Positions 4,935-63,832 of a stretch of DNA of 64,000 nt are shown one piece after another. The stretch's first letter is position 1. Every line of letters begins with the position of its first letter. The DNA is taken from the IMG/VR virus record IMGVR_UViG_3300022514_000030, positions 1-64,000 of that record; one strand, given 5' to 3'. The notes beneath the pieces were generated by a model. It was not told where the DNA came from and searched no databases. It saw nothing but the letters and a program-made list of their open reading frames with translations. This DNA is from a virus. The position numbers and the translations under genes are program-made.

Positions 4935-5101
4935 CAGCTCACCTTCTTCTTACCCCTGCTCTTGCTCTTTGCCGCAGCTTTCTTACCCACCTCAATGATT
5001 ACCCCAACCAGGTTGAATGCAGCGATGAGCACAGCTGCAGCCGCGAGCAAGGCGTTTACCACACCAGTGGTTATCCAAAACGCTGTCCAGTATGGGTGCA
5101 C
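4934..5101 (-). CDS. Small single-span membrane protein with basic tail
   Basis: A 55-residue protein beginning at GTG 5101. A GGAGG box lies 7 nt upstream, right after the stop of the gene at 5117. The stop overlaps the ATG of the RuvC-like gene (TGATG). Residues about 8-38 are a continuous hydrophobic helix (WITTGVVNALLAAAAVLIAA then FNLVGVII), followed by a tail of Lys/Arg/Ser (KKAAAKSKSRGKKKVS). Topology would place the basic tail in the cytoplasm. No family is recognised. Possible roles are membrane anchoring of replication or a lysis accessory. The ribosome binding site and tight coupling on both sides support it as a real gene. Confidence 0.72.
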   Translation of the reverse strand: MHPYWTAFWITTGVVNALLAAAAVLIAAFNLVGVIIEVGKKAAAKSKSRGKKKVS

Positions 5102-5116
5102 TGCACTGCCTCCTCT

Positions 5117-6630: not shown

Positions 6631-6703
6631 AGGCTGCTATCCTCGGGTTACTGTTGTACGTGAGTATTTCCTTGTTGCATACGATGCAGATTTGCTTGTT
6701 CAA
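6536..6703 (-). CDS. Small zinc-ribbon/treble-clef type protein
   Basis: About 55 residues from a TTG at 6703. A purine-rich AAAGGGGGG lies about 8 nt upstream; an upstream in-frame ATG at 6742 lacks a comparable site. A CxxC knuckle (CIVC, C6/C9) and a later HxxC (VHWEC, H32/C35) form a plausible single zinc site of treble-clef type. It overlaps both neighbours and is probably co-translated with them. Zinc proteins of this size in phages often bind nucleic acid or host polymerase. The partner here is unknown. Confidence 0.6.
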   Translation of the reverse strand: MNKQICIVCNKEILTYNSNPRIAAYEKKWSVHWECVRNTIEDILDRSTPGVEPRK

Positions 6704-6866
6704 ACCGCAGTCCCCCCTTTCTGCTTGCCAGCGTGAGCTCAATATAGTCCCTGCAGTTGTTCATAAGCCAGCGTATTATCCTGTGCTCAGACATGGGCCT
6801 TTCACCATAAACATCACACACCTTTATACCAGGCGTGCTCAGGTAAAGCTCTATGTCGTCAAGCAC
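6648..6866 (-). CDS. Small hypothetical protein in the replication unit
   Basis: About 72 residues starting at GTG 6866. GGAGGTG is placed 8 nt upstream, inside the end of the preceding gene (16-nt overlap). The sequence is helical and charged (DDIELYLSTPGIKVCDVYGE, RIIRWLMNNCRDYIELTLAS) and has no recognised family. An upstream in-frame start at 6902 lacks a good site and would deepen the overlap. The 3' part overlaps the next zinc protein, so one of the two could be annotated differently. Evidence for this frame is mainly the strong ribosome binding site. Confidence 0.55.
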   Translation of the reverse strand: MLDDIELYLSTPGIKVCDVYGERPMSEHRIIRWLMNNCRDYIELTLASRKGGLRFEQANLHRMQQGNTHVQQ

Positions 6867-7507
6867 GACTGCCCCACCTCCAGCAGGTCCCACCACTGCC
6901 ACCGCGGCATTATGGCCAGCAGCTCAGCCCTGGGCTTTCGTCTTACCACCATGCATTTGATATCATCACTCTCAAGGCCGGATGTTACAGTTATGCCGTA
7001 CGGATAGCTGATGCTGCTTATAATCCCGCGGTGGAATGTAAACAGAGTGCTCTTGCTGTGTGATGACGTTATCAGGTATACATCCTCAAGCGGCTCAATA
7101 ACCGTACTCGTATCCGGGTGGTATAGACTGTACGCTTCAGGATAGTTAATCTCATCGGCCAGCCTGATCAGCGCAAGCGCGTAGCCGTCCACCACTTTGT
7201 CACCTATACACTCTATGGTGCCCGGAACGCTGTGGACGTGGGTAAGCAGGCCTTCACCGCTCGGCTCGTACCGCACCATCCACAGGTTAACGCGCTCGTC
7301 GCGTATATCATCCGGTTCCACTTCGCACAATGCGTAGGTGGTGTAGCCAACCTGTCCGGGGCTCTGTCTTGAGCTTATCACAGCGCCCTTCCACTTCATG
7401 TCAACCATTACGGCGGGGTATATGAATCTCTTGTATGCTGCGTCCTGCAGCTGTACTGTGTTGTCCACTACAAGCTTTGGCCTTCTGCCACTACCTGGTC
7501 CGCCCAA
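6851..7507 (-). CDS. Hypothetical protein with MGGPGSGRRP N-terminus
   Basis: 218 residues starting at TTG 7507, with GGAGG about 12 nt upstream. The first residues MGGPGSGRRPK form the basic, Gly-rich leader seen in several phage proteins that bind nucleic acid, such as small terminase subunits and HTH proteins. No helix-turn-helix is evident in the rest, which is mixed alpha/beta (VNLWMVRYEPSGEG, SLYHPDTSTVIEPLEDVYL). I do not recognise its family. It lies between two small zinc-protein genes in the early unit. Confidence 0.6.
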   Translation of the reverse strand: MGGPGSGRRPKLVVDNTVQLQDAAYKRFIYPAVMVDMKWKGAVISSRQSPGQVGYTTYALCEVEPDDIRDERVNLWMVRYEPSGEGLLTHVHSVPGTIECIGDKVVDGYALALIRLADEINYPEAYSLYHPDTSTVIEPLEDVYLITSSHSKSTLFTFHRGIISSISYPYGITVTSGLESDDIKCMVVRRKPRAELLAIMPRWQWWDLLEVGQSCLTT

Positions 7508-7526
7508 TTACTCATCACTCCTCCTA

Positions 7527-7769
7527 TTACTGTGTACTCAGCGGAAACTTGGGTGAGAAGTTTTCGCGCCTTATCATTAGCTCACGGTCACGCTCCGAGT
7601 GCTGGCATAGCGGTATCGGACAGTCCTGACACTTTACAAACAGGTGTGAGGCCTTCACCATGCACTTATAGCATATTGGGCATGGATGATAGCGCGGACA
7701 GTTGCGCTTTCTAGCCTCCTCAGGCCACACGTTCCTGTATGACACTATGGTGAACTCCTCACTGCTCAT
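7527..7769 (-). CDS. Cysteine-rich metal-binding protein
   Basis: 80 residues with seven cysteines in paired spacing: C24, C30, C33, C36 (CPICYKC), C47, C50 (CQDC), C55, plus His residues. This is enough for two zinc sites or an Fe-S cluster. The ATG at 7769 is preceded by GGAGG, but the linear spacing is about 15 nt. A small perfect hairpin (stem TGCGT/ACGCA, 7772-7784) lies exactly between the two and could bring them together. The gene directly follows the helicase stop. Function is unknown; the setting suggests a nucleic-acid-linked role. Confidence 0.65.
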   Translation of the reverse strand: MSSEEFTIVSYRNVWPEEARKRNCPRYHPCPICYKCMVKASHLFVKCQDCPIPLCQHSERDRELMIRRENFSPKFPLSTQ

Positions 7770-7790
7770 AATGCGTGTTACGCACCTCCT

Positions 7791-8768
7791 CTACTTGATA
7801 TCGTGATGCACGATGTCGAGGTACTTCCTGTGCGTTGCGTCATCCGGCTCCTTCATGAGCGACAGCTCGGGTATAAACTCGAAACAGAGCCGCCCCTTGA
7901 AGGAGTTGTACTTGTTCTTTGCGACGTGTACCTCGAATACAGGATAGCGTGCAAAGTCGTTCGGTGGATACCAGTAAAGGTTGCTCTGCTCACCCCGTGC
8001 ACCAAGGTCGTTGTAGCAGAGCATTATCGACTTTGCCTCGTACCTTATCTTGATTGATTCCCTTATGTCATCAAGCTGCGGGCGCCTTTGGCCGTTCAGC
8101 TTCCGCAGCTCGGCTGTGCACACAATCGGTATATCAAGCTCGTTAGCAAGGTCGGACAGCGCCTGGGCTATGTACTCGTATCTTCCGTTCTCGCTGTTTA
8201 TCCTCACATCCGGCAGTACGTCATGGAAGCTGTCCACAAACACGACCAGCTGCCATTCTTCACCCAGCGTCCCTAAGTCCACCTTTCTCTGCCTCACTAT
8301 TTCACACAGAGAGCTGATCATGCCTGCAGCAGCACCGTCCAGTATCTCGTACTTCAAAGCGCTGTTCTTGATCGTGTCTATAGCCTCAACCACCTTTTTG
8401 TACACGCCGGGGTTCTTTTCCCAGTTCACACCCGCCTGTTTGACTGTGTTTATCGGCAGCCCGGATATGTGTGCTGCAAGACGGCATACCTTTTCAAACT
8501 TGGTATCGTCCAGCGTTATGTCGATCACGTGCACATACTCGTTGTTCTTCACTATCTGCCACGCGAGCTGGCTTGCGAAGGCCGTCTTACCCATGTTGGC
8601 CTCCCCGGCTATGATGTGCAGTCCGGGCTGCAGGCCATGCAGCGCAGCGTCCAATCGCTTAAAACCCGTAGTAAGCCCTTTTCTGCCGCGCTCGATTATC
8701 GCCATTATCGCGTCCAGTTCCGCTATTGTTTGCTCTATCCATGGAAACTGCATTTCGGTAGTGTTCAA
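7791..8768 (-). CDS. DnaB-like replicative helicase (RecA-fold core)
   Basis: About 325 residues, lacking the N-terminal DnaB domain. Motifs: a linker GLTTGFKRLDAAL, Walker A GEANMGKT (about residues 55-62), H1a-type VIDITLD, Walker B VVFVDSFHD, and a C-terminal KNKYNSFKGRLCFEF with the arginine-finger/H4 type loop. It would unwind DNA at the fork as a hexamer together with the primase. The TTG at 8768 lies 9 nt after GGAGG; the GTG seven codons upstream would place that box inside the gene. The N-terminus overlaps the primase gene by about 110 nt, an unusually long overlap in which both readings must be conserved. Confidence 0.9.
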   Translation of the reverse strand: MNTTEMQFPWIEQTIAELDAIMAIIERGRKGLTTGFKRLDAALHGLQPGLHIIAGEANMGKTAFASQLAWQIVKNNEYVHVIDITLDDTKFEKVCRLAAHISGLPINTVKQAGVNWEKNPGVYKKVVEAIDTIKNSALKYEILDGAAAGMISSLCEIVRQRKVDLGTLGEEWQLVVFVDSFHDVLPDVRINSENGRYEYIAQALSDLANELDIPIVCTAELRKLNGQRRPQLDDIRESIKIRYEAKSIMLCYNDLGARGEQSNLYWYPPNDFARYPVFEVHVAKNKYNSFKGRLCFEFIPELSLMKEPDDATHRKYLDIVHHDIK

Positions 8769-48076: not shown

Positions 48077-51000
48077 TTAAACCCTGGCATATCCGTACTT
48101 CAGAAGCTGAGAGAACACTTCTTTGGCATAGTCCTCGTTAAGCTGTGACGTGTCGTTTGAGAAGTTGACGTTGACGTTCACATTGCCGTTAAACGCCTCG
48201 CTTGCTATGGCGTTAATGTCATTAGCAGACAGCCGCCGTTTTGTCCTGCCGCGTATGGTTATACGCGCACCGGTGTTTTCTACCGGGACAGGCCTCTGGT
48301 ATACTTCACCCTGCTCACCTTCCGACATGGCAGGCGCAACAGGGATAGGTTTCTGAGCTCTGGCGTATCTGCCGCCACTGCTCTCCGGTTCTGTGTAGTC
48401 ATCCTTGTCTCGTGGCCGCAGGAGTGCCATTAAGCCCAGACTAGCCAAGCCTATTCCCGCCAGCACCTTCCAGTTGCCTATCGCCGAGCCGAGCAGACCT
48501 CCGGCTCCACCGCCCGCACCAGCGGCACCGGAAGCTGACTTGGCAGCCGCCTTGGCCTTGATGAAGTTGTTTATCTGCTTTATATGCTGTGCACCGGGCC
48601 CCTGTTTACCGCCCGCCGCAGCAGCTTGCGCTTTTATGGCTTGATTTATTCGCCTTACTTCCTCTGCGCCTGGCGCAGCACTGGCCGCTTCTGCAGCACG
48701 CTGTGCTATATCCTCTGCTGCTTGTTGAGTAGCACTACGCGCCGCCTGCTGAGCTGCTGCAGCATTGGCAGCTGCTGTATCAATTACATCAGCCGCTTGT
48801 CGCGCTACTGCCGCAGTAGTGGCTGTATCAACGACGTCAGCTGCTTGTTGTACCGCCGCAGCAGCCGCTTCTGTAACAGCATCAGCTGCGCCCTGCACCT
48901 GCTGTTCAAGTGGTCGGAACAAGCTGTACAGCCGTTCTTCAAAGTCCGCGAATCCCTTGCTACTGCCACTCTGTACCTTCTGCCTCAGTCCGGAATCCTT
49001 AACAAAATCCGCAAGTCCCCTGTCATCCCGTACTCTTAGTGAATAGCTTATCTCCTGCCTGAGTTCTGGATCCTTCAGCATTTCATACAGCTGTGCCTGC
49101 AGTTCGGAAAAGTCCAGTGTCGGCCGTCTAAACACTCGCTTTTGCTCAAACCTCCGTGGCTGTAGCTGGGAGAGATCCTGTATCGGCCGTCCGGGCACTC
49201 TCTTTTCCTTAAACTCTCGCAGCAGGTCAAACAACTGTTCCTGGAACTGCGGTGTTTGCTCCAGCTCAATCAGTTGTTTGAGTCCACCAAGCCTCTCGCC
49301 AAGCTGCTGCCTCAGGTTGCGGAACCGTACCAAAAAGCTCTCCGGATCCTGCGTCTCCACCAGCATCTTATCCGGTGTCGTTAGGTCTTCAAACAGAGTG
49401 TGGATACGGCGCCAGAGCTTTTCCTGCAGCGGCAGCTCCGGCGGCTCGTGCCGCACAACCTGAACAGGGATAGAACTCTGCAGCGGCACATGCGTTCCGG
49501 TAAGAGGATCTATCCCGCTTTTGACAGCAGTACTGACATCCACATCCGGCTTTAGGTGCCGCACAATAGCGTCCCGGACATGCCCTTCTACCGTGTCAGC
49601 GCCCGCTCTGGTATAATACAGAGCAATTTGCTCCAGCTGTTCGGGCGTAAAATCGCCGATACGCTTGAAGAATATGTCGCCAACGCCCGGGACATTGCCG
49701 GTCAGTGGTATGCGCATGTCCGCGCCGCTGCCCAGCATCGCCCACGTTGGCCGCCTGTCTGCCCGCAGCTCTTTCTGCAATCGACTGCGCAGCTGCTCTA
49801 GCGCATCACCCATCTCAAACAATTCCAGGTCGGACTTTGTCAGAGGAACGGCGTTTGCATTGTATGCATCGCGCAACTGCTGAAACTCGTCTATTATCTG
49901 CTGGATGTTCGCCATATCCTCTGCGGGATTGGCCGACAGCGGCGGTATAGAAACATCCTCTGTAGGTACGTTGGTAAGCACGTCAGCCGCTTCGCCGATA
50001 GCCGGCAGTGCTGCGATGTCTATACCGGCATCCTTCAGCTCCTGTATACCCCGCTCTAGCGCGTCCAGTCGGGCGCTAATCACCGGTCTTTGGCGCAGCC
50101 ATTCCATAAACTGCGCACGTCCCTGTACGCCCTGCTTCTTAGCCTCAGCTGGTATGATGAAGCTGTCATATACCCAGTCGATGAAACGTGAAGCGGTTTG
50201 TTCGTCACGTATCGCCGGGATGTGCGCAGCTTCGAGACTGGCTGCAAACTCGTCCAGCGCACCGCGCTGTGCTGCGTTGTATATGCTCTGCGCAAGCCCG
50301 TCCAAAGTGCGTACATTCTCATCCGCAATCCCGCACTGTCTGAAGTAGTCTATGAGGGAATATACCGCTTTTTTCCGGCCCTCCGGTGTTTTAGCGCTGC
50401 GCTCAACGTACTCGCGCAGCCTGCTGTACAACTCTTCAGGCACAACGGTGGGAATATGGATTTCACCTTTACCAACCGGAAGGCCGGTAAACTTGTACAA
50501 GCGATAGGGCGTGTACCGCGATACTTCCAGCCCAAGCTTCTTGCCGGTCTCGCCCTTTATGAAACCTCTCTTAAACTTCTCCCCGATCTGGCTGTAAAGC
50601 TGTCCCGGGTCCCCTTTCAGCACGCCTGCACCGTGGAGCATGACTATGTCTTCAGCAAGCGTCTTAAAAGCCTGGCCTTCCGGGCTGGCGAGCCATTCCT
50701 GCATGTGCGGCAGCATGTGCTTGTACATTGGCGAAACGTCTCGCGTTAAGTAGTAGCGCATCTGGTCTACGGTCTTCTTGCTTATGTCACGCGACCCGGT
50801 ACTACCAAGCATGGATACAAGCAGCTGCTCACCCGGTGTAAGCTGTGCACCACTGTCCAGTTTGTGTGCCGCTTCGAGTGTTTTGTCAATGATCGGCTGA
50901 AAAGCCTCCGGTCCTGCTGCACCCTGTCCGGTATACGCTACCAGCCGGCTCAGCTGCGGCAGCGAGGTCTTAATGCCGCGCACCTCGCGAGCTGTCAAAT

Positions 51001-54000
51001 CAAGCACATCGTCCATAAAGATGTTCTTCGCTTCTTCAGCCGATGGAACGTATGCAAACTGCGAGTGGAAACGTTTGGCCAGGTCGGTAAAGCTCTCCGC
51101 TGCCACCTCGTCTATTATACCGGTGCCACGCCAGCGCCCTGCCTCGTCAAGATCGAGCCGCTCAGCTAGCGCATACAGTACACCGTCCCGCTCTTCTATG
51201 CCGCGAAAACGGTAGATACCCTTGGTTGCCGTATCGCCGGCAATTGGAGTGAGGTTGCCTATAACGCGATCTGGAACGGTATGTCGGTACAACAGATCGC
51301 CTTTGCGCAGCGGTCTTATATCCGCTTCAGCCGGCAGTGCAGTTGAAATACCAGCATCAAGTACTGTAAGCGCGTCACTCTTTGCTGGCAGGTCAAACAC
51401 GCTTCGTACGGTATAAGTGTCTATCTTGGGCTTCCTAAACAGGCTGGTCAAAGTGCGCTCAAACCGCGGCGCCGCTTCCGGTGCACTTGTGCGCACCATA
51501 CCAACAGCCTCAGCATATGTCTTACCAAGGTCTGGACCGGCAACATAGTCAACGCTCTGTTTAATCCTGCGTAGGTTCGCTATGGTATCGTCAAGCACCT
51601 CGTCCGGTGCAGCAGCTGCTTCCGGGACCGCGAGGTTTATAACCTCCGGTGCGCCGACAAGCTCGGAGATAATGCGGCCGTCGTCACCACGGCTGTAGCG
51701 CACCAGTTGTACATTCAGTCCGGTGGTGGCTGCGCCTTCTGCTGCCTGTACCGGCGTGATAACCGCAACTGTGTATGGCCGCCTGCTAACGTTAGCCTTT
51801 AGCCTGGTCAGCGTGCCAAGCGTCTCATCAACGGTCACACCCCCGCTGGGCGGTGTCGCCCGCTCCAGAACAATACCGCCACCCCTGGTAAGGCGCTCAT
51901 ATCCCGGCGGAGTCAGATTGGGAATACCCTGTGTTGGTTTAAAGACTTCAAACTCGTCCAGCAGTCCCGCCGTCAGCTCATCCATACCGCTTACAAGATA
52001 GTGCTCACCGGTAAGCACATCGCTGGCGATTATGTCACCGCCCGTGCCGCGCTCAAGCGTTACGGGATGCCAGACATTGCTCTGTTTGACATACGTCTTA
52101 AGCTTTACCTTGCCGCCGGACTTCTCACTTAAGTCAAACAGAGTACTGATTCGTTCCTGGCGCTCACGCTCAGGTACGCCGGACAGGTCTATCTCGTACC
52201 TAACCGGCTGAGTGATGTCCATTGTTTCCTGAGCTGCTTGTGCCGCACTTTCGCCCGCCTCTTCCGGCAGCTCAAGCTCGTACACCAGCCCGCTGTCCAC
52301 AACCTCGTCTGCTACATCTTCCACAATGCCTTCCACACGGTTTGTGTCAAGAGTGACATCCCTACCTGCCAGCCTGCCGGTTGACGAACCTTCGGCCAGT
52401 GTGACAAGCGACTCCTCCTCAACCGGCCTTTGTTTTAGGTACCTGGCTATCTCGGCCGGCTTCATGTCTGCAATGTACTGCAGATGCTCGATACCGCTAG
52501 TGACATCACTATCGCCGGCCTCGCGAACAAGACTAACAACAGCGTCGTGTATAAGCTTGGCCTTCTCCAGGTCGGTCAGCTCGCGCACCCTACCGCCCTC
52601 TATGACGGTAAGCCCCTTGAGCTTGCTGCCTATAGTCGCTATTGCGCTGTACTCGTCACTTGCTGCACGCAGGTCGGTAGCAAACAGCTCGCCCAACAGC
52701 GCACGACGGTAGGTCTTCCGAAATACCGCGTTCCTGGCTACCCCAGCAGGATTGTATGCATCTATCTTGCCCGCAATCGATGCGCGGCTGATCGCCCTGT
52801 TCAATGCAAGCCAGCTTGACGATACGATGTCAACATCCTCGTACTTGCCTTTGGCCCATGGCGCAACGCTCAGCGCTGTTTTGAGTAGGTACGCGTTTAC
52901 GTCCTCATCCGTTAGCTGTGCAACTGCTTTCTCTGCCTCTGCTGCAGCCAGGCTCCTGATTATCTCTGCCGTGTTGACAACGCTAACTCTTCCCGGTGCT
53001 GTTGCGCCAAATACTTCGCTTACACCGCCGCCCCACTCTATGTTTCGGTATGCGCCTTTGACCTCTTTTGCGAAGAAGCGCGCCATCGCCTCACGCTGCT
53101 CGCGGGTCTGTATTGCCTCCACCGCACCGGGCTCGATCTCAACGACTATGCGCGTCTCTGCAGGCAGTTTTTGTGCCGCCAGAGTAACGACACCCTGTTC
53201 TTCGTCGATACTTGTTATGCGGAACGGCACAGCACTGCCGGCTATCATGACCTTTTGGTCAAGGTCGCGCGCTTCAAGCCATCTCGTGCGGCGCTCGGCC
53301 AGCTTCGCAGCTGGAACTTCACGATACAGGCTCTCCACCTGCTGCCCCTCAGCCAGGTATGCAGCACGTGCGCGCACCAGCTCTGTACCGCCACCACCCA
53401 GCTGGAGCTTTTTACCGAACTTAAGCGCTTCAACAGTCTCATCTGTTTGTGCCTGCACCTGAGCTATCTCCGCTGCTACGGCATCGCGGCCCGGCCCCTG
53501 TGGCGTGCGGTTAGAAGACAGCAGGCCTATCTTCTCAAGATACGCCACTTCTTCTTTGCTGTACGCATTGGTCATACTGAGGAAGTGCGTCTTCATTTCG
53601 TCTTCAAACTCTTGAGCAGCGGTTTTGTACGCCTCCCTCAGCACCGAACTCGTGCTCTTATAGACACCCCGCGCCCTGTTCAGCCGCAGGCGTATGGACT
53701 CGATGATATTGCGGTTTGCAACGTCCGTGCCGACCAGCGCTTCAACATCACTGAACTGCTGCGTGAGCGCCTGGAATCTCCCCTCCAGCTGCTGGAACCG
53801 CGCCAACAGGCCCGTCCTTGTCAGCTCGTCTTCCAGCTTCTTCAGCCTGTTGAAATCCTCTGGCGCAAGCGATCTTGCCGCCTTCAAGCGCTTATATGTG
53901 GCGTAGTCCCAGCTTTTTTGCTGCAGGTCTTTGAAATCGTCCAATAACCTGCGGAGCTGGCTGTCGTATTCCCTGAGCCGCTGTATTGAGACGCCACGCT

Positions 54001-54358
54001 CAATCTCGGCACGACCAATTACATCAATACCGCCTTCTACCAGTTCCTGCAAGAAGCTTTTCGCCCGACCCACATGGATCGGTTCTATCAATATGTCTTC
54101 AAACGATATCTCGCCCGGCTTGTATCCAGCGCGCTCAATCAGCTTCCTTGTTTCCTCCTGTATAGCTTGTATCATGCTAACAGGATGGGGATTGACCTTT
54201 GTGCGGAGCGTCTCGAAGAACTCATCAGCCACTTCATCGCTGTGCACAAAGGATAAGACGCGGACGGCGTCCAGCACGCTGCTAACCAGCGTGCTTGCAT
54301 ACTTCTCAGATACCTGTTCGAGATATTGTGGGTTGAATATGTGCGGGTTCAGGCGCAA
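48077..54358 (-). CDS. Giant tail protein, tape-measure-like
   Basis: 2093 residues from TTG 54358 with TAGGAGG 7 nt upstream. Long helical and coiled-coil stretches (QRLREYDSQLRRLLDDFKDL, GRFQALTQQFSDVEALVGTD), an Ala/Gln-rich helical region near 1840-1920 (AADVVDTATTAAVARQAADV), one hydrophobic segment (VLAGIGLASLGLMALL, about 1960) and a structured C-terminal tail. Size, coiled coils and late hydrophobic span fit a tape measure, which sets tail length and is ejected with the DNA. Two such giants lie in tandem, so which one measures the tail is uncertain. At the usual 0.15 nm per residue either would give a tail of hundreds of nanometres. Confidence 0.72.
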   Translation of the reverse strand: MRLNPHIFNPQYLEQVSEKYASTLVSSVLDAVRVLSFVHSDEVADEFFETLRTKVNPHPVSMIQAIQEETRKLIERAGYKPGEISFEDILIEPIHVGRAKSFLQELVEGGIDVIGRAEIERGVSIQRLREYDSQLRRLLDDFKDLQQKSWDYATYKRLKAARSLAPEDFNRLKKLEDELTRTGLLARFQQLEGRFQALTQQFSDVEALVGTDVANRNIIESIRLRLNRARGVYKSTSSVLREAYKTAAQEFEDEMKTHFLSMTNAYSKEEVAYLEKIGLLSSNRTPQGPGRDAVAAEIAQVQAQTDETVEALKFGKKLQLGGGGTELVRARAAYLAEGQQVESLYREVPAAKLAERRTRWLEARDLDQKVMIAGSAVPFRITSIDEEQGVVTLAAQKLPAETRIVVEIEPGAVEAIQTREQREAMARFFAKEVKGAYRNIEWGGGVSEVFGATAPGRVSVVNTAEIIRSLAAAEAEKAVAQLTDEDVNAYLLKTALSVAPWAKGKYEDVDIVSSSWLALNRAISRASIAGKIDAYNPAGVARNAVFRKTYRRALLGELFATDLRAASDEYSAIATIGSKLKGLTVIEGGRVRELTDLEKAKLIHDAVVSLVREAGDSDVTSGIEHLQYIADMKPAEIARYLKQRPVEEESLVTLAEGSSTGRLAGRDVTLDTNRVEGIVEDVADEVVDSGLVYELELPEEAGESAAQAAQETMDITQPVRYEIDLSGVPERERQERISTLFDLSEKSGGKVKLKTYVKQSNVWHPVTLERGTGGDIIASDVLTGEHYLVSGMDELTAGLLDEFEVFKPTQGIPNLTPPGYERLTRGGGIVLERATPPSGGVTVDETLGTLTRLKANVSRRPYTVAVITPVQAAEGAATTGLNVQLVRYSRGDDGRIISELVGAPEVINLAVPEAAAAPDEVLDDTIANLRRIKQSVDYVAGPDLGKTYAEAVGMVRTSAPEAAPRFERTLTSLFRKPKIDTYTVRSVFDLPAKSDALTVLDAGISTALPAEADIRPLRKGDLLYRHTVPDRVIGNLTPIAGDTATKGIYRFRGIEERDGVLYALAERLDLDEAGRWRGTGIIDEVAAESFTDLAKRFHSQFAYVPSAEEAKNIFMDDVLDLTAREVRGIKTSLPQLSRLVAYTGQGAAGPEAFQPIIDKTLEAAHKLDSGAQLTPGEQLLVSMLGSTGSRDISKKTVDQMRYYLTRDVSPMYKHMLPHMQEWLASPEGQAFKTLAEDIVMLHGAGVLKGDPGQLYSQIGEKFKRGFIKGETGKKLGLEVSRYTPYRLYKFTGLPVGKGEIHIPTVVPEELYSRLREYVERSAKTPEGRKKAVYSLIDYFRQCGIADENVRTLDGLAQSIYNAAQRGALDEFAASLEAAHIPAIRDEQTASRFIDWVYDSFIIPAEAKKQGVQGRAQFMEWLRQRPVISARLDALERGIQELKDAGIDIAALPAIGEAADVLTNVPTEDVSIPPLSANPAEDMANIQQIIDEFQQLRDAYNANAVPLTKSDLELFEMGDALEQLRSRLQKELRADRRPTWAMLGSGADMRIPLTGNVPGVGDIFFKRIGDFTPEQLEQIALYYTRAGADTVEGHVRDAIVRHLKPDVDVSTAVKSGIDPLTGTHVPLQSSIPVQVVRHEPPELPLQEKLWRRIHTLFEDLTTPDKMLVETQDPESFLVRFRNLRQQLGERLGGLKQLIELEQTPQFQEQLFDLLREFKEKRVPGRPIQDLSQLQPRRFEQKRVFRRPTLDFSELQAQLYEMLKDPELRQEISYSLRVRDDRGLADFVKDSGLRQKVQSGSSKGFADFEERLYSLFRPLEQQVQGAADAVTEAAAAAVQQAADVVDTATTAAVARQAADVIDTAAANAAAAQQAARSATQQAAEDIAQRAAEAASAAPGAEEVRRINQAIKAQAAAAGGKQGPGAQHIKQINNFIKAKAAAKSASGAAGAGGGAGGLLGSAIGNWKVLAGIGLASLGLMALLRPRDKDDYTEPESSGGRYARAQKPIPVAPAMSEGEQGEVYQRPVPVENTGARITIRGRTKRRLSANDINAIASEAFNGNVNVNVNFSNDTSQLNEDYAKEVFSQLLKYGYARV

Positions 54359-54369
54359 TACTATCCCTC

Positions 54370-57300
54370 CTAATCAGCAAGCAGCATTGCGGGATCTCTG
54401 TTGATGTATTCAACCAGGTCACGCGACATGTCATAGCCCATATGCATGTTGACTTCTATGCCGGCCTTGTCGCTCGGCTCAACATTCACGTCTATGTCTT
54501 CTACACCAGCAGCGGAGAGCAGCCTGCGCAGCCGCTCGGCAATCTCACCAGCATTACCGGGCGTGCGCATATTCATCTTGGGCACGCGTACCGGTACCTG
54601 CTGCGCTCTCAGCTTGTCTTCCTCCCAAATGTCAAACTCGCCTGGGTCAAGATGCATTTTGTCCACCAGCTTGACGCGCACCGCTTCAAGGTCTACATCC
54701 GGACGCCAGCCTTCCCAGGACTCGTCCGGTAGATAGTGCGTCTTAAAGTATTCCTCAAGCTTGGGCTTCTTTGGTGCTTTATCACCGTGCGCAGGCGCAA
54801 GGCCGTAGAACAGCCATTCCGGTGCAACCTTCTTGAGCTTTTTGTACTCCCACTTGGGCATCTTGAGGAAGTAGCGGAAGTAGCGCCGCTCCTTCTTGGG
54901 CAGCGCGACGATAAAGTCACCCAGCGGTTCGCCAGGCTCGTAACCATACATCGTCTGCTTCATCTGCCTGTAGTAGGCAATCGCCCTTCGCGCCCGCGGT
55001 GGTAAGTCCTCTTCAGACACCTCTGGAGACGTCTTCAGACTGGCAAGCTCGGCATTAATGCTCTTTATGGCGAGCTTCTTCAGCTCGTCCAGCGACCGCT
55101 GCACTCTCTTTGCCTTTTCCTTTTCGTCAGCTTCTTCAGCCTGCGCTCTTGCAAGCTCGTTGGCCTGTTTTATTTCCAGTGCTGCGGTTTCTTGTTCTGT
55201 CCTCTTAACAGCTTTGCGTGCCTTTTTCTTGTCATCCTCTACAGCAAGACGTATGTTATACTTCCTGAGTATCTCAAACAGTTCATCTGTTTGATTGCCC
55301 TTCAGCTTCTGTATGGCGCGCTTTGCCTCCATGAGCGCCCTTTTACGCGCCTTCACGAGCTCCTTGTGCTTGTCCCGCGCTTCAAAGTACTTCTGTACAT
55401 CAAAGCCCTCTTCTTCAAGCGCACGCTTGCGTTCATGCTCATACAGACGTCTGTACTTTACGTACTTGAGAATATCAACGTATTGCTCCAGCTCCCACTC
55501 GCGCCGCCTCCTGGCCGGAATCCACTTCTTGCCCGTTACAACTTGATATGCGGTAGTATACAAGGCCCCGGCACCAACAGTGGCAGCGCCAATCGCCGCA
55601 CCTATTACCCTGGTCGCCGGTCTTCTCCCGAATAGAGCACCTATACCCGCACCTAAAAGCATCGCAATAGGCAGGGGCTTAGAGATGAACGACTGGTATG
55701 TCGGTATGAGAAAGTCCCTTATGGGGTGCTCCCAGCTCTGAAAGTTCTTGCCGTATACCTCACGCCTTACCCAGTCCTCATATGCACTGCGCACCTGGAG
55801 AAACTTGGTATGAATGGGCGTGTCAAGGTGGGAATTATGGACAGCGCATACAAGAGTTGTATAGCTATGATTATCCTCTACTGTGAAGTCGTACACCAGT
55901 TTACCTTCGTATTTGACTTCTTCTACTTCTTTAATCCTGGCGAAGAGAACTCCATCCTGAATAAATGCCCAGCCATTAGTCTCTCGTTTTGATGAAGGTA
56001 TCTCTTTGCCAAGCAGTTTGGCTAGTTCTCTACCCTGTTTCCCACCAATGTGCAACATATACCGTTTCTTATGGATGGTGCCGCTTACATCCTTACGAGC
56101 CTCCGCTATATGCAGACCCGGTATGAATCCTAAATTCAGCAACACCATCCTCATAGGAATGATTATGTTAGGCTGGACAGAAACACAGGATACAGTTTCA
56201 CCTATATGGCCATCGCCGCGGAAATAGCCAACCACCAACCCCTTTAGAGCCTCTAAGTCATCAGTAAGTGCTTCCGTGCTAAGCCGTTTATCGACAGTAC
56301 GCCCCAAAAGTGCATTAAAGAACTCGGTTACTATAGAATTCCCAAGGTGCACTATCTGCACATTACAACTGGGCTGATAATGAACAGTGCAACTTACCCC
56401 AAACACCTTGCGTGCGCACTCAATAACCTCATTGGCGTATTCAGTTTCGTTAATGTGAAAAGCAAACTGAACAGCTACAGGTTTGCCTCGCTGAAGCTTA
56501 ATATGTCCCTCGCTTAGATAGTAACCGAAAAGTGTATACAGCTCACGGGAAACCGGAATGTAGCGATCGACTGGGACACTACTCTTTCTAATAGCGTTTG
56601 GATTAAATCCTCCTACTTTAAGGTAGATTTTGTCGTCGATCACAACCTTGTTGCTTAGGTCAATATAGTCAACAAGGTCAAAAACACGCCTCTTTGGAAG
56701 CTTCGCAATAGGCATACACACCCAGTCGTCCTTGCGTAACTCCTCGGCCTTTATCCATGTTGGTTTATAGGCCGCAGGACAGCCATCACGACATATACTT
56801 CGACCAGGAGCACATACGCCGGGCCGGCACCCATTGGAACCCTTCACAAAAGGACATGACTGCGCTTTGGCGGCATACACCTCATGATTGCCGGTTAGTA
56901 CTAATGCGTCACTAGTCATCCATGTCCGAATGCGGTAAACTTTCTCTGATTCGGCTAGCGGACGCTTATGAACACAGACTACCTTATGCCAATTGCCATC
57001 CGTAGTGAGCACCAAATCGCCCAGTTTCACTTCCTTAGCCTGTTTTAGATCATCGTGAGTTACAATTAGCTGGTTTTCGCTGACGCAGAACCGCTCCCAT
57101 GCCTTACCGAAGGCCCTCTCAAGCCGGCTGAAGCGCGCCATCACGGCAGCAGGTGAGTAGTCCTTCTCTTTTTCCTTGGCAACCTTCTCCTTAAGCAGGA
57201 GCCTGTTGATGTTCTCGCCCTTCACGTATACAACCGCTTTGATGGGGCTGTAGTCCTTCCTGGCTTTTCTTTCATCATCCGGTTCGTAGTAGATCACTAT

Positions 57301-60300
57301 CTTGGTACCGGGCTTCAGCTTGCTCTGCAGGAGCTCCGCTGCACGCTGCGCAGCTTTGTCATCCTTCGCACCGGCAACGTGTATGCCAGCAAACTTTATG
57401 GGGATATTAGGCAGTTCCTTGACAAAGATGGTATTGTTGTCAGCCAGGGACTCTACTGTTACAACACGCTTTTTCAGCTCACGCTCGGCACCAACAAACC
57501 TGTAGGGATATATCCTGAGTGGCTCCTTCATCTTGCGGACCATTTCGCGGATCCGCTTTACCTCTTCCTTCTGCTCGGGCGTGAGCTTTATCTTGCTCAT
57601 CAGCTTGCTGTACTCTTTGTACTCTTTGCTGTATGGCGCAACATGTGCTAAGATACGGAACCTGTCCAGAGGGCCGTACAGTTCATAGCGGTTTATGACG
57701 CCTTTCTTGTGGAGCTCAATAATCTCAGGATGCTCCTTGAGGAACCTGGTAAAGTCCTTGTTGTACAACGCCTCATAACCGCCACCGGGAAGCAGCATCT
57801 CGCCGTGAGGTAAATACGAATCGCCAGTATGGAAGTCTATATAATAGTCACGCGGCAGCCACGATGGCATGCGATTGGGAACCGGATTAAACATCTCGCC
57901 CCATTTCTCTCTTCTGCCGATAAAGCGCCGCACAATCTCGTTTACGTTACCGCCAAGCCCGCCCAGGTTTTCCTCCCAGAACCGCCGCCTAATGGAGTAT
58001 ATACCGCGCGCCTCTGCAATGCGTACTTCCTTGTCCTTGGGCACGTCCTGCGATATACCTGTCGCAGTTTCGGCAAGGAAACCGTAGAAGCCCGCAACCT
58101 CGGTAACACTCGACCAAAAGGCCCGCGCTACATCCCTCGCACTCCCGGGAGCTGTATACTTGCGTCCGTACTCGTCAACTATGTCGCCCTCGGGTGTGAT
58201 CTCTACACGTACACCACCGGACGTGATGTAGCCACCTTCAGTGGTCTCTTCTTCGGGCTCTCCAGCCGTTTCGTGTCTTTCAGCTGTCCCTTCCGGCTGT
58301 CCAGCTGCACCCTCTAGCCCTCCAACTGCTCCGTATCCTCCCGATGGCCCGGCTGCTGCCCCGCCACTGGCAGGCGGCTCCACAACTAGGTACTCTCCCT
58401 CAGGCAGTTCTCCCTCTGGCCGCCCCTCAAGCTGCGCCCAAACCTCGGGATGCATCTTCTTCCTCGGCTTTATAAGCCTGCTCACGGCTGTGAGGAGAGG
58501 GCCTATAATCGGCAGCTCAACCAGTTCGGGATAATCACCAGTGTAGAGGTATGGCCTCTCGTAATAGTGTTTTTCTTCCAGCCAGTACCTGTCCGTCACA
58601 TATCGCTTAATTGGCGCGGTAGGATAGCGCGGCGTGGGGATAGGAGCATGAGCAAAGTATTCATCCTCGCTGCCGTACAGGACATCCGTGTACTTCCACT
58701 TGGACTTCAGCCGTCGGTACCAGTTGGGTCGCCACGCCTGGATGCGCCCACCAGTAAAGGGAGTATTTCCCAGCGGCCAATAGCGCCCTTTCCTGACGGG
58801 TTCCTCGCCGCTCTCAAACCATTCCTCCATCTCCTCAGGCGTCTTGGTCATCCAGATGGTGGCATCCTTGACAATCGGCAGCTCGAGGATCTGGTCAGAA
58901 CCGGGCGTGAGCTGTTGCAGCCTGTCCATAAATCCGGTCAGGCCGATAGCACTGCTGAGCCGTGACAGTGCAGTCATGGTATACCGATAGGCGTCTGCCA
59001 GCAGGAATTCCGGCCTTACACCGGTCAGCTTCTCCATCTCGTAATTCAGATAGTGCCATCCGAAAGCAAGGCCGCCAAGCACGAGTGCGCGGCGCAGGAA
59101 CAGATTGGTGAAGAGGCTGAGCGTGTCACCGGTATGCTTGGACGATAACCCTAGCCGCGCTTTACCAAGTGAAAGATCCATCCGACCCACGCCTATGTAC
59201 GGTATGAGCGTTAGCGTGGACACATCCTGAAGTCTGTGCCGCCCCGCAGTCAGCTGCTTCCAGATCGAACCTAACGAGCTGAAGTCGGCAGCATTAACAT
59301 AGACCCATGGTTGTTCAATAAAACGCTTTGTGGCCGGTGGTATGTGGCTCGCACGCTCGGGCCCCAGTGCGTCTATAATCTTACCTATACCGGCCTCCAT
59401 TGCCTCGAACAGCGGGTTTTCCGCCTCTTTTCTACCAAGAAACCCTAGCCTTGGATCGTCCCACAGGAATGTGTCCTGGTAGCCTATGTCGAGGGCTCTA
59501 AACAGCGGGTCCAGTAAACCTCTCACACCACCGCGCTTTGTATACTCGTTCATCTCCAGACCCGCCATAGTGCGGATATACTGCAACTTTACGTTACCCA
59601 AGCCGTGTATCAAATAGCCCAGCCCTTTGTTTACCTTTACAAGATCGTCCAGCTTCTGCGGGATGTTCCCTACATCAAACACTTCGCCGCCGATGAACAA
59701 CAGCTGTCGCCCCAGCTCGTCTATATTACCGGTAAGCAGCGGCTGACGCTCTGTCACATCAAACAGATAGGTGAATGGACTCCTGTTGATGCCAAGCACG
59801 TCGCTCAGGTGCAAAAGTCCAAGGGGATTAAAGTTGACTATCGGGATCTGGATATCTTTCTCCAGCCGCTGTATGAACTTTGTAAGCTGTTCGCTCATGC
59901 CGCGCATGTCAATCAGTTCGCCGGCCTCATTTATGAACAGCGCCGGGTCGACAATAATATTCCCACCGGACAGGCCATAGATCTTTGCAAGCTGTTTCAG
60001 CCTGGCAAACTCGGGGACATTAAGCTGCATGATATCGTCCAGTACTGCATACCTAACCCCGGCAACCTTCTGCATCATGCTCTGCAGCTTGGCATTCGGA
60101 GTGAGACGCTTTTGGATCTGCTCCACAATCTTGGCTTTAACAACGTCCACACCTTGATCGATTGCAGTCTGTGTAACCCCATGCTGCGCGCCCCACGAAC
60201 TCTTCAGATCGTCAAGCACATCCCGTGATTGTCTCAATATCTCTTCCAGATAGAAGTGCGGTTTTTGAGTGCCGTGCTTGTTTTTCACAGCGCTTACAAC

Positions 60301-60597
60301 ATACCTTTTTAGTTCTGATGCCTTTCCAAGTGCGGAAAGATTCTGCCCCTGCCCCTTGGTGACGTAGTGCTCCCACTGGTATACTCCTTCTATAGCACGC
60401 GCAACAGGGCCGGGCTTGTATTTGCTGCTCAGCACCATCGTCTTTTGAACGGATGCCTTTAAAAGACCGGTGCGCCAAAACAGGTATCCCCCGGCCAGCA
60501 GCCCGCCAACAAGCAGGGCCGTGTTGACCGCCGAACCTTTTTCCTGCTCCTTTTCGCTGTAGTAGTATGCGTCCTCCCGTTTCCTGTACTTTGCCAT
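54370..60597 (-). CDS. Giant tail protein with nuclease-like fold, split by an intein
   Basis: 2075 residues from ATG 60597 (AAGGTG 12 nt upstream); 1657 after removal of a 418-residue intein. Hydrophobic segments near 20-40, 500-520 and just behind the intein (AMLLGAGIGALFGRR, GAAIGAATVGAGALYTTAY) suggest membrane contact during ejection. About 1040-1168 is an SNase-like OB fold (TIFVKELPNIPIKFAGIHVA, VVYVKGENINRLLLKEKVAK), but the catalytic Arg positions are not conserved. The intein follows WERF. Behind it lies a Lys/Glu-rich coiled coil (KAVKRTEQETAALEIKQANE). Probably a tape-measure or injected internal tail protein; exact role unknown. Confidence 0.78.
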   Translation of the reverse strand: MAKYRKREDAYYYSEKEQEKGSAVNTALLVGGLLAGGYLFWRTGLLKASVQKTMVLSSKYKPGPVARAIEGVYQWEHYVTKGQGQNLSALGKASELKRYVVSAVKNKHGTQKPHFYLEEILRQSRDVLDDLKSSWGAQHGVTQTAIDQGVDVVKAKIVEQIQKRLTPNAKLQSMMQKVAGVRYAVLDDIMQLNVPEFARLKQLAKIYGLSGGNIIVDPALFINEAGELIDMRGMSEQLTKFIQRLEKDIQIPIVNFNPLGLLHLSDVLGINRSPFTYLFDVTERQPLLTGNIDELGRQLLFIGGEVFDVGNIPQKLDDLVKVNKGLGYLIHGLGNVKLQYIRTMAGLEMNEYTKRGGVRGLLDPLFRALDIGYQDTFLWDDPRLGFLGRKEAENPLFEAMEAGIGKIIDALGPERASHIPPATKRFIEQPWVYVNAADFSSLGSIWKQLTAGRHRLQDVSTLTLIPYIGVGRMDLSLGKARLGLSSKHTGDTLSLFTNLFLRRALVLGGLAFGWHYLNYEMEKLTGVRPEFLLADAYRYTMTALSRLSSAIGLTGFMDRLQQLTPGSDQILELPIVKDATIWMTKTPEEMEEWFESGEEPVRKGRYWPLGNTPFTGGRIQAWRPNWYRRLKSKWKYTDVLYGSEDEYFAHAPIPTPRYPTAPIKRYVTDRYWLEEKHYYERPYLYTGDYPELVELPIIGPLLTAVSRLIKPRKKMHPEVWAQLEGRPEGELPEGEYLVVEPPASGGAAAGPSGGYGAVGGLEGAAGQPEGTAERHETAGEPEEETTEGGYITSGGVRVEITPEGDIVDEYGRKYTAPGSARDVARAFWSSVTEVAGFYGFLAETATGISQDVPKDKEVRIAEARGIYSIRRRFWEENLGGLGGNVNEIVRRFIGRREKWGEMFNPVPNRMPSWLPRDYYIDFHTGDSYLPHGEMLLPGGGYEALYNKDFTRFLKEHPEIIELHKKGVINRYELYGPLDRFRILAHVAPYSKEYKEYSKLMSKIKLTPEQKEEVKRIREMVRKMKEPLRIYPYRFVGAERELKKRVVTVESLADNNTIFVKELPNIPIKFAGIHVAGAKDDKAAQRAAELLQSKLKPGTKIVIYYEPDDERKARKDYSPIKAVVYVKGENINRLLLKEKVAKEKEKDYSPAAVMARFSRLERAFGKAWERFCVSENQLIVTHDDLKQAKEVKLGDLVLTTDGNWHKVVCVHKRPLAESEKVYRIRTWMTSDALVLTGNHEVYAAKAQSCPFVKGSNGCRPGVCAPGRSICRDGCPAAYKPTWIKAEELRKDDWVCMPIAKLPKRRVFDLVDYIDLSNKVVIDDKIYLKVGGFNPNAIRKSSVPVDRYIPVSRELYTLFGYYLSEGHIKLQRGKPVAVQFAFHINETEYANEVIECARKVFGVSCTVHYQPSCNVQIVHLGNSIVTEFFNALLGRTVDKRLSTEALTDDLEALKGLVVGYFRGDGHIGETVSCVSVQPNIIIPMRMVLLNLGFIPGLHIAEARKDVSGTIHKKRYMLHIGGKQGRELAKLLGKEIPSSKRETNGWAFIQDGVLFARIKEVEEVKYEGKLVYDFTVEDNHSYTTLVCAVHNSHLDTPIHTKFLQVRSAYEDWVRREVYGKNFQSWEHPIRDFLIPTYQSFISKPLPIAMLLGAGIGALFGRRPATRVIGAAIGAATVGAGALYTTAYQVVTGKKWIPARRRREWELEQYVDILKYVKYRRLYEHERKRALEEEGFDVQKYFEARDKHKELVKARKRALMEAKRAIQKLKGNQTDELFEILRKYNIRLAVEDDKKKARKAVKRTEQETAALEIKQANELARAQAEEADEKEKAKRVQRSLDELKKLAIKSINAELASLKTSPEVSEEDLPPRARRAIAYYRQMKQTMYGYEPGEPLGDFIVALPKKERRYFRYFLKMPKWEYKKLKKVAPEWLFYGLAPAHGDKAPKKPKLEEYFKTHYLPDESWEGWRPDVDLEAVRVKLVDKMHLDPGEFDIWEEDKLRAQQVPVRVPKMNMRTPGNAGEIAERLRRLLSAAGVEDIDVNVEPSDKAGIEVNMHMGYDMSRDLVEYINRDPAMLLAD
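55834..57087 (-). other. Intein with LAGLIDADG homing endonuclease
   Basis: 418 residues (1171-1588 of the host protein). Starts with Cys (CVSENQLIVTHDDL, block A), has TGNHEVYA (block B, with the conserved His), the two dodecapeptides LFGYYLSEGHI (about intein residue 185) and LVVGYFRGDGHI (about 282), VYDFTVEDNHSYTTL (block F) and the C-terminal VHN followed by Ser (block G). All residues needed for self-splicing are present. Between B and the endonuclease is a Cys-rich insert with CRPGVC and CRDGC that could bind zinc. The intein is visibly richer in A+T than the flanking host gene, consistent with separate acquisition. Confidence 0.94.
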
Positions 60598-60641
60598 ATA
60601 AAAAGACCGCACCTTAAATCTGTTCAGGATTCAGGTGCGGT
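60598..60641 (-). promoter_or_regulatory. Hairpin over the gene junction: attenuator or translational coupler
   Basis: A perfect 9-bp inverted repeat, ACCGCACCT/AGGTGCGGT (60633-60641 with 60606-60614), encloses the stop of the gene at 60614 and is followed by CTTTTTAT. The 3' arm contains AAGGTG, the binding site of the giant gene's ATG (60597). The 5' arm is coding sequence of the previous gene, so ribosomes finishing it would open the hairpin. The T-run makes it terminator-like as well. Confidence 0.65.
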
Positions 60642-61757: not shown

Positions 61758-63818
61758 TTAGTCAATGTCTCTGGCTATAAATTCGTATACCTCTTCAATC
61801 GGCTTCCCCGTGGGATCCAGCACCTGCGTACAGCCCGTAAGCTGTACGCCTCTTATAGCCTTGACCGTGGTATTGTAGCTTACCATACCGGGGAGCGTAT
61901 TGCCCCTCTTCTCTACATCGTAAGGCAGCGGTCCGTAAACTATGTATATATCAAACCCAGTCTCCTGCAGCGCCTTTGAATATTCGCCGCTGTAGAAGAA
62001 AGGCTTATAGTGCCGGCTTTGTGCGCGTTCCGGAACGAACGGATCGCCCCATATCTCGTTCTCATAGTCACTCATGGCTTTATGAGCTCCAGAACTGCCC
62101 GATGTTCCGCCTGTTGTACCAGAACCAGTGCTGGAGCTGCTGCGCGAATTGAGCAGTTCGTTGATCTTTGCCCACGTCTGCGGCCCGACAATGCCGTCTA
62201 CCACTAGGCCGTACTTTTTCTGGAATGCCTTGACCGCGGCTTCGGTCTTGGGACCAAATATTCCATCTATGGGCCCCGGATCAAAACCAAGCCGTTTCAG
62301 AGCCTCCTGCAGCCTTCTTACATCCTCACCACGAGAACCTCGCTTGAGCAGCGGCATTCGTGTGGATTGCCCTGCAGGCGCCGATGAGCTGAGTAGCTCG
62401 TTTATCTTACCCCACGTCTTAGGTCCCACAATACCGTCGACCACCAGGCCGTACCTCTTCTGAAACTCCTTAACTGCAGCCTGAGTCTTGGGGCCGAAAA
62501 TGCCGTCTACGGCGCCACAGTTAAACCCCAGCTTGTTCAATGCAGTCTGCAGCCGCTTTACATCCTCGCCGCGGGAACCAAGCTTGAGCAGCGGTGTCGA
62601 GGTTGAAGCCGACTGTCCCGCCGAAGACGGCGCCGTCGGCGCTCTTGAACCCAGCAGCTCGTTTATCTTACCCCACGTCTGGGGACCGACAATGCCATCA
62701 ACCTTCAATCCATACTTCTTCTGAAAGGCCTTAACAGCAGCCTGAGTCTTGGGACCAAAGATACCGTCGGCCGCACCACAGCTGAAGCCCAACTGGTTTA
62801 AAGCGTTTTGCAACCGCTTTACATCTTCACCGCGGGAGCCAAGCTTGAGCAGTGTGGCTTGGATCTGCATCGCCCCGCGACCGCTCATTGATGCTCTGTT
62901 CAGCAGTTCACTTAACTTTCCCCACGTCTGAGGACCTACAATGCCGTCGACTTTTAAGCCGTACTGCCGTTGAAATGCTTTAACAGCAGCTTCCGTCCTG
63001 GGCCCAAAGATACCATCGATAGGGCCAGGATCGTGGCCCAGCTGTTTCAAAGCTGTCTGCAACCGCTTGACATCTTCGCCGCGGGAACCACGCTTCAAAA
63101 GCGGGCCAGTACTGGATATCGTTGAGACCGTCTTTGTACCCAGCAGTTCGTTTATCTTACCCCATGTCTGAGGGCCTACAATACCGTCAACTTTCAAGTT
63201 GTGCGCCTTTTGGAACGCTTTCACAGCAGCCTCTGTTTTAGGTCCAAATATACCGTCTATAGGCCCCGGATCGAAACCAAGCTGCTTTAAAGCCGTCTGC
63301 AGTCTTTTAACGTCCTCACCACGGGAGCCCCTTTTCAACAGCACGGTTTTTGAAGGCTGTACTGCTGAAGACTGCACAACCGTCGAAGAAGATTGCACTG
63401 CTGGCTGGCTGCCGGAATTAAGCACGTCCTCTATCGTTCGCAGCGCATCCCTGTGCCATTCCGGTACCGGCTGGTCGCTTAACATATAAGACAATGCAGG
63501 GGCATCGCGATTGCCCCCAAGCTCACCTATATGCTCGAGTACGTTGTAGAGATACCCCGCCTTCCTGAAGGCTATACTAAAGCGGCCCTGTACTAAGCGG
63601 GAACCACGCTTGACAGCGTCGTACGTGTACGAAGCGTAACCATATATGGGCCGCACTTGCTCAACAAGCGTAAACTGGAGGCTGGTGATATCCGCAAGCC
63701 ACACGTCGCCGAAGTATATGACCACATCGGCCCCGCTGAAGAACTCCTCCGGAAAGTGCTGATATTCAATTTGCTGTCTTGTATATGCCACACCGGCCGG
63801 CGTTTCGTGCGAAGCCAT
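61758..63818 (-). CDS. Virion protein with five inserted peptidoglycan-binding domains
   Basis: About 686 residues from ATG 63818 (AGGAG about 11 nt upstream); a TTG three codons earlier is too close to that site. The N-terminal domain (about 20-100: VVIYFGDVWLADITSLQFTL, RPIYGYASYTYDAVKRGSRL) and C-terminal domain (about 590-686: FDIYIVYGPLPYDVEKRGNT, AIRGVQLTGCTQVLDPTGKP) belong together as a structural protein type seen in SPO1-like phages. Five PG_binding_1 repeats (about 159-556) separated by Ser/Thr-rich linkers split it. The protein may expose wall-binding arms on the tail surface. Confidence 0.78.
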   Translation of the reverse strand: MASHETPAGVAYTRQQIEYQHFPEEFFSGADVVIYFGDVWLADITSLQFTLVEQVRPIYGYASYTYDAVKRGSRLVQGRFSIAFRKAGYLYNVLEHIGELGGNRDAPALSYMLSDQPVPEWHRDALRTIEDVLNSGSQPAVQSSSTVVQSSAVQPSKTVLLKRGSRGEDVKRLQTALKQLGFDPGPIDGIFGPKTEAAVKAFQKAHNLKVDGIVGPQTWGKINELLGTKTVSTISSTGPLLKRGSRGEDVKRLQTALKQLGHDPGPIDGIFGPRTEAAVKAFQRQYGLKVDGIVGPQTWGKLSELLNRASMSGRGAMQIQATLLKLGSRGEDVKRLQNALNQLGFSCGAADGIFGPKTQAAVKAFQKKYGLKVDGIVGPQTWGKINELLGSRAPTAPSSAGQSASTSTPLLKLGSRGEDVKRLQTALNKLGFNCGAVDGIFGPKTQAAVKEFQKRYGLVVDGIVGPKTWGKINELLSSSAPAGQSTRMPLLKRGSRGEDVRRLQEALKRLGFDPGPIDGIFGPKTEAAVKAFQKKYGLVVDGIVGPQTWAKINELLNSRSSSSTGSGTTGGTSGSSGAHKAMSDYENEIWGDPFVPERAQSRHYKPFFYSGEYSKALQETGFDIYIVYGPLPYDVEKRGNTLPGMVSYNTTVKAIRGVQLTGCTQVLDPTGKPIEEVYEFIARDID
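62151..63344 (-). repeat. Array of five PG_binding_1 coding repeats
   Basis: Units at about 63141-63344, 62901-63101, 62652-62852, 62391-62594 and 62151-62354, each about 67 residues with LLK(R/L)GSRGEDVKRLQ ... DGIFGPKT(E/Q)AAVKAFQ ... VDGIVGPQTWGKI. Linkers differ in length and sequence. Two further copies lie in the gene at 44241. Two sequence classes are visible: GFDPGPIDG (units 1, 2, 5) and GF(S/N)CGAxDG (units 3, 4 and the hub copies). Confidence 0.93.
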
Positions 63819-63832
63819 ACAGCGCAACGCTC

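Follow-up and report, generated by a model that had tools for sequence, protein, structure and literature searches.

A probable LAGLIDADG intein of a large contractile-tailed phage lies in a repeatedly invaded tail gene

Introduction

Phage inteins usually sit at the active sites of terminases, polymerases, helicases and ribonucleotide reductases, and the usual view is that intein hosts are enzymes of DNA metabolism. A 64,000-nt stretch of viral DNA (positions 1 to 64,000 of IMG/VR record IMGVR_UViG_3300022514_000030; hereafter the window) raises the question of what an intein-like insert is doing in a gene for a tail protein: is it an intein, how did it arrive there, and how exceptional is its location?

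In mycobacteriophages, Kelley et al. 2016 described five intein sites in TerL1, and the portal, a virion protein, as a further host (PMC5050341). The hosts in that survey include terminase, RecB-like, methylase, portal and other proteins in 13 host groups; the survey found nucleic-acid binding to be common to every phage intein host, and the portal is the sole virion structural protein named (PMC5050341). A tail protein is absent from the 13 groups, and the word "tail" was not found in the text of that paper. Among RNA elements, an intron interrupts the tape measure gene of vibriophage ICP1 (PMC10448857), and cluster J mycobacteriophages have introns in capsid and tail genes (PMC3706429). Tail genes are likewise targets of splicing mobile elements in these cases, but the elements are RNA introns and the tail gene is a different one.

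Results

The insert carries the landmarks of a class 1 intein

The host reading frame runs without a stop across 2080 aa. Its parts are as follows (window coordinates).

54370..60612, minus strand: host gene, precursor of a probable gp145-type virion protein; the start is more likely ATG 60597 (2075 aa) than GTG 60612 (2080 aa)
57088..60597, minus strand: N-extein, 1170 aa, C-terminal end ...GKAWERF, aligned with homologues
55834..57087, minus strand: very probable LAGLIDADG intein at site S8, 418 aa, residues 1176-1593 of the 2080-aa frame
57085..57087, minus strand: Cys1 of block A, the nucleophile that opens splicing; invariant in 13 full-length inteins aligned from the host gene family
56884..56895, minus strand: block B, T-G-N-H; His68 invariant in the same 13 inteins
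56779..56856, minus strand: Cys-rich stretch C78-C103, five Cys, a low-confidence region of the AlphaFold2 model
56500..56532, minus strand: LAGLIDADG motif 1, LFGYYLSEGHI
56203..56238, minus strand: LAGLIDADG motif 2, LVVGYFRGDGHI; LAGLIDADG_3 match E = 0.001, residues 283-359
55834..55896, minus strand: blocks F and G, VYDFTVEDNHSYTTLVCAVHN; penultimate His417 and terminal Asn418, both invariant in the 13 inteins
54373..55833, minus strand: C-extein, 487 aa, its first residue the +1 nucleophile Ser: SHLDTPIHTKFLQVRS

The insert starts with CVSENQL and ends with CAVHN, and the next residue is Ser. Block F reads VYDFTVEDNHSY and block G reads VHN/S (here and below, a slash marks a junction or insertion point). 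Cys1, TxxH, HN and a +1 Ser, which define a class 1 intein, are all in place, as are two dodecapeptide motifs with acidic residues, the mark of a LAGLIDADG endonuclease. The initial annotation had described a complete LAGLIDADG intein at 55834-57087, with its splicing blocks and both dodecapeptides, and a spliced length of 1657 residues. Every landmark could be located, and both coordinates and length were exact: the predicted spliced product is 1657 aa from ATG 60597 and 1662 aa from the upstream GTG.

Profile searches agreed with the motifs. TIGR01443, the NCBIfam model for the C-terminal part of inteins, scored 20.2 bits, above its cut-off of 15.6. Pfam Intein_splicing matched with E = 2.3e-6 in the whole protein and 1.1e-7 with the insert alone; the score for the insert (32.2 bits) lies under the curated cut-off of 35.8, as does that for the whole protein, although this cut-off is not biologically defining because the endonuclease interrupts the Pfam model. 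The same model was matched by 13/13 full-length inteins of the host gene family. An AlphaFold2 model of the window intein (pLDDT 86.7, pTM 0.85) matched solved inteins in Foldseek with E down to 9e-21, the best being TliVMA and PI-SceI, and thereby displays the Hint fold; the I-DmoI fold was also matched. A profile built from the 13 full-length family inteins retrieved PI-PkoII from the PDB with E = 1.1e-24. The likeness of the insert to inteins is far beyond chance.

As in TliVMA (7qsu), PI-SceI (1vde) and PI-PkoII (2cw7), the Hint domain is split by a two-motif LAGLIDADG endonuclease, and the resemblance extends to Cys1, TxxH, HN and the +1 nucleophile as well as to the structure and profile matches. 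The window intein differs from VMA/PI-SceI-type inteins in sequence (identity about 15%), in its host, a phage tail-module protein rather than an ATPase or polymerase, and in its Cys-rich insert. This stretch is possibly a zinc or redox site; similar Cys-rich stretches occur in the inteins of two relatives, L054 and L065. Within the phage collection, the best intein match was in Enterococcus phage vB_Efa29212_3e (OP559178), with E = 3e-27 and 25.5% identity along the whole length; the host there differs, belonging to a gene cluster annotated as ribonucleotide reductase.

Homologues have an empty site with joined flanks

A tblastn search gave two relatives with annotation, gp26 of Moorella phage MTATph1 and gp031+gp033 of Bacillus phage KLEB27-3; further homologues are in Acinetobacter phage ME3 and more than 100 viral contigs. 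Neither the host protein of the window nor the intein, used singly, retrieved anything from the viral contigs, where relatives needed alignment queries. Alignments of the C-extein and the conserved core gave more than 300 viral relatives, 80 of which were kept in the widest scan, and 16 relatives came from bacterial assemblies, among them Paenibacillus, Alicyclobacillus and Oceanobacillus.

MTATph1 has an empty site with contiguous flanks, FFERL/AHLDTPFNSKF; at S8 the alignment reads FFERL/AHLDTPFNSKFL in MTATph1 and AWERF/intein/SHLDTPIHTKFL in the window. All 40 readable homologues (MTATph1 and 39 among 104 dereplicated homologues) were free of the insert, with joined flanks (WEKF/AHLDTPFHTKF). 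This is the comparison with intein-free homologues that the initial annotation had proposed, and its outcome is the opposite of what would have told against an intein, namely the 418 residues recurring as a conserved domain. Since the insert is absent and the flanks are joined, it is not such a domain. The idea of a conserved, non-splicing, intein-like domain of the tail protein draws on the insert being in frame within a structural gene, and on nothing more; it is refuted by the contiguous flanks, and the composition of the insert is also unlike that of the host gene, so that we give this reading practically no weight.

The GC content of the intein is 45.8%, against 53.4 and 53.9% in the exteins, and its third-position GC is 0.44 against 0.62. 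Nowhere else in the window did a sampled stretch of this length show a GC content as low. This fits recent acquisition. An abrupt change of composition at both ends, in a metagenomic viral contig, could also be the trace of a misassembly that joined an intein to the host gene. Yet both joints are in frame, fall exactly at Cys1 and at Asn/Ser, and are residue-exact with respect to the empty site, which makes a chimera very improbable.

The +1 residue at the empty site is Ala in 27/39 homologues (a count that excludes MTATph1), and Ser was therefore gained with the intein or before it. Ala as the usual residue at this position, together with the sub-threshold Pfam score, would be compatible with a decayed intein that has lost splicing or only cleaves, leaving a protein that functions in two parts or with the insert still in place. 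Against such decay, no catalytic residue is missing, Ser occupies the +1 position and the 2080-aa frame is unbroken; moreover, the insert would interrupt a conserved protein, falling between a staphylococcal-nuclease-like (SNase-like) fold and a KFLQVRS segment. We therefore regard a decayed intein as unlikely. A search for a second phage with an intein at S8, across the host gene family, found none.

The host is probably a gp145-type virion protein

One family member (L060) links the host protein to ME3 gp035, whose record describes a virion structural protein similar to YP_001429636 of phage 0305phi8-36; the record of ME3 gp037 gives similarity to the baseplate hub YP_001429638. YP_001429636 stands two genes ahead of the hub, orf147 of 0305phi8-36, and the tape measure gene, orf146, separates the two. 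Counting back from hub orf147, the window host protein is therefore of the orf145 type. The gene order is kept in the window: two small genes, the host gene, then a gene of 2093 aa.

48077..54358, minus strand: next gene, in the tape measure position (orf146 of 0305phi8-36) by gene order alone; 2093 aa

No sequence match was found for the product of this gene. On the strength of the ME3 gp035 annotation, reached through L060, and of gene counting from the hub, the intein host is probably a gp145-type virion protein whose gene stands between those for the tail chaperonins and the tape measure. The intein had been placed in a virion protein at the outset, which the annotation of the ME3 homologue upholds; the host had also been called tape-measure-type, an identity that we rejected on ME3 homology and gene order, the tape measure position of ME3 and 0305phi8-36 being taken in the window by the next gene, 48077..54358. 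The phage is large and contractile-tailed. Another tail-module protein of the window, at 61758-63827, has five peptidoglycan-binding repeats.

Two regions of the host protein stand out.

57643..57960, minus strand: most conserved family core, NPxxNxMPxWLP...LPGxGY...ILADVAPYS; in homologues, inteins S4-S7 and two group I introns lie here
57163..57468 (approximate), minus strand: SNase-like fold directly before the intein, from profile and Foldseek

The family profile matched thermonuclease with E = 0.003, and Foldseek matched SNase structures with E about 1e-3 and a TM of about 0.6 on the target; both values are borderline and they agree. The intein thus lies directly behind a nuclease-like fold, as had been noted from the sequence, and this fold is SNase-like. 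In a profile-guided comparison by eye, the SNase catalytic residues Asp21, Arg35, Asp40, Glu43 and Arg87 correspond to N, K, H, G and P in the window; an active nuclease was rejected because the catalytic residues are missing.

Inserts of about 180 aa in five relatives (L006, L007, L008, L011 and L014) have no splicing motifs and were rejected as inteins for this reason. They look like a PD-(D/E)XK nuclease domain, judging from motifs read by eye and a Pfam match of E = 0.33. What looks like an intact PD-(D/E)XK (RecB-like) domain lies between the core and the SNase-like fold in these five and in L050; it is missing from the host protein of the window.

The host gene family has been invaded at 11 sites

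The family holds 18 inteins at 11 sites in 12 phages, the window included, and most of the 104 dereplicated members are intein-free. There are three inteins in L065, two in L054 and one each in L056, L057, L059, L063, L064, L066, L131 and L190. L050 (IMGVR_UViG_3300014911_000022, 4182-8045) has four mini-inteins of 246, 144, 156 and 145 aa in a single open frame, the first two only five extein residues (SPYQG) apart. The sites, numbered on the mature window protein, are as follows.

S1 611/612, S2 616/617, S3 831/832, S4 about 883
S5 911/912, S6 941/942, S7 983/984, S8 1170/1171 (window)
S9 about 1201, S10 1546/1547, S11 1564/1565

The map is based on a fast alignment of 70 sequences, from S1 onward, and the positions of S4, S9 and the L190 intein are uncertain by one to three residues.

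Recognisable LAGLIDADG motifs are kept in all full-length family inteins and absent from the mini-inteins of 144-246 aa (four in L050, one in L066). S1 holds both full-length (377-399 aa) and mini (151 aa) forms, as the homing cycle predicts. Alleles of the same site cluster together, those at S1 (L056, L059, L066) with support 0.97 and those at S2 (L064, L131) with support 1.00, and inteins at different sites are about 20-30% identical. The sites have a mean conservation of 0.48, against 0.31 at random positions (permutation p about 1e-4); S8 itself is moderately conserved, at the 67th percentile. Repeated invasion by homing elements, endonuclease loss and retention in a conserved gene are indicated by the same-site clustering, the mini forms and the conserved sites. 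A rough reading of frames in 50 virus records gave 14 inteins in the host gene family against about 10 in terminase genes; these records were picked for having the host gene, so that the terminase figure is a lower bound and not a rate.

Several distinct sites in one phage gene are also seen in mycobacteriophage TerL1, with 5 against 11 here. Haloarchaeal MCM has four intein sites with non-allelic LAGLIDADG inteins, often with more than one occupied (PMC10643990); MCM is a helicase with four sites, whereas the host here is a phage structural protein with 11.

Group I introns interrupt the same gene in relatives

In KLEB27-3 (L001, 14979-16039), a group I intron of 1061 nt that contains an HNH gene lies at the position of window residue 913, only two residues away from S5. 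When the exons are joined, MPDW-MPGVEYFTDF is restored exactly; a P1 pairing is present, the 5' exon ends in U and the intron in G, and the Rfam match is weak on its own (E = 0.04). A split intein was rejected as the cause of this split gene on the grounds of P1, the U/G ends and the exact exon joining. KLEB27-3 gp031/gp032/gp033 are thus one intron-split gene, the exons of which the record lists as separate structural proteins. A second group I intron (L208, 8306-9471; E = 8e-7), with a LAGLIDADG reading frame, lies between S6 and S7 of another homologue. Near S1/S2 of a further one, a gene-free break of about 300 nt (L188, about 6520-6810) gave no Rfam match at E < 0.1 and is perhaps a small intron. 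Inteins and group I introns thus both occur in one gene family, in different phages.

Discussion

We consider it very probable that the feature is a class 1 LAGLIDADG intein, a selfish homing element in a recurrently invaded tail gene. The precursor would be translated whole, intein included; the Hint domain would transfer the N-extein from Cys1 to Ser+1, and cyclisation of Asn418 would release the 1657-aa mature protein. The freed intein would act as a homing endonuclease that cuts empty alleles in co-infecting phages and is copied into them by repair. It would persist because the host gene is conserved and only an exact deletion restores it. Ten further sites of the gene have been colonised independently by other inteins, with group I introns near two of them, which makes it a recurrent target of homing. 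Splicing, cleavage and homing are what we infer from the sequence of the window intein, homing at S8 being suggested by the intact endonuclease motifs and the foreign composition. The proposal that splicing is a condition for a functional tail is plausible, since the insert splits a conserved protein.

Beyond this, splicing might be conditional, the intein being domesticated as a timer or sensor (redox, temperature, late stage) that gates the assembly competence of the tail protein. The repeated invasion of an assembly protein family and the Cys-rich C78-C103, which could sense redox or bind metal, would suit such a switch, and a bacterial DnaB intein offers a precedent for conditional splicing (PMC6195587). 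A selected switch is, however, expected to stay at one site, and the pattern is sporadic: 12 carriers over 11 sites, most of the 104 members without an intein, and degenerate mini-inteins among the alleles. Conservation of the target sequence accounts for the recurrence, and conditional splicing appears unlikely, marginally less so than decay of the intein. Equally doubtful is a general assembly checkpoint of large contractile tails, in which splicing, at whichever site is occupied, would delay or gate assembly or DNA ejection.

On the reading as a selfish homing element, the window intein is a further allele of a known kind of element, and the heavy, independent invasion of the gene family is the interesting part. 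The insertion had been called unusual at first sight. This stands for phage inteins as a whole, among which a tail-module host is unusual in the literature searched, a library with few subscription journals; no description of inteins in a gp145-type gene was found there. It does not stand for the gene family, which has been invaded again and again. The invaded tail-module protein belongs to phages of Firmicutes and Acinetobacter and to many metagenomic phages, with up to four inteins per molecule. This suggests that colonisation is governed by sequence conservation and indispensability rather than by enzyme active sites. The gene family is a new source of mini-inteins, and for annotators such elements are a possible reason for broken or oversized tail genes.

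Other mobile elements were noticed in these genomes. The large terminase gene of the window's phage, outside the window, is split into frames at 94729-95673 and 93746-94447, with a group I intron match (E = 6e-8) between them at about 94499-94854 on the minus strand (L266 14499-14854). A 1455-aa frame, probably a terminase, in L271 (G042) has two intein C-terminal signatures. In Eggerthella phage LE2-3 (L005, 3007-4200), the annotated portal protein contains a distant intein relative and is thus a further virion structural host. Finally, outside the window in the same record (G000), inspection by eye revealed a free-standing LAGLIDADG-like gene among tail genes and an RRXRR/IscB-like frame (65652-66632 and 79997-80533).
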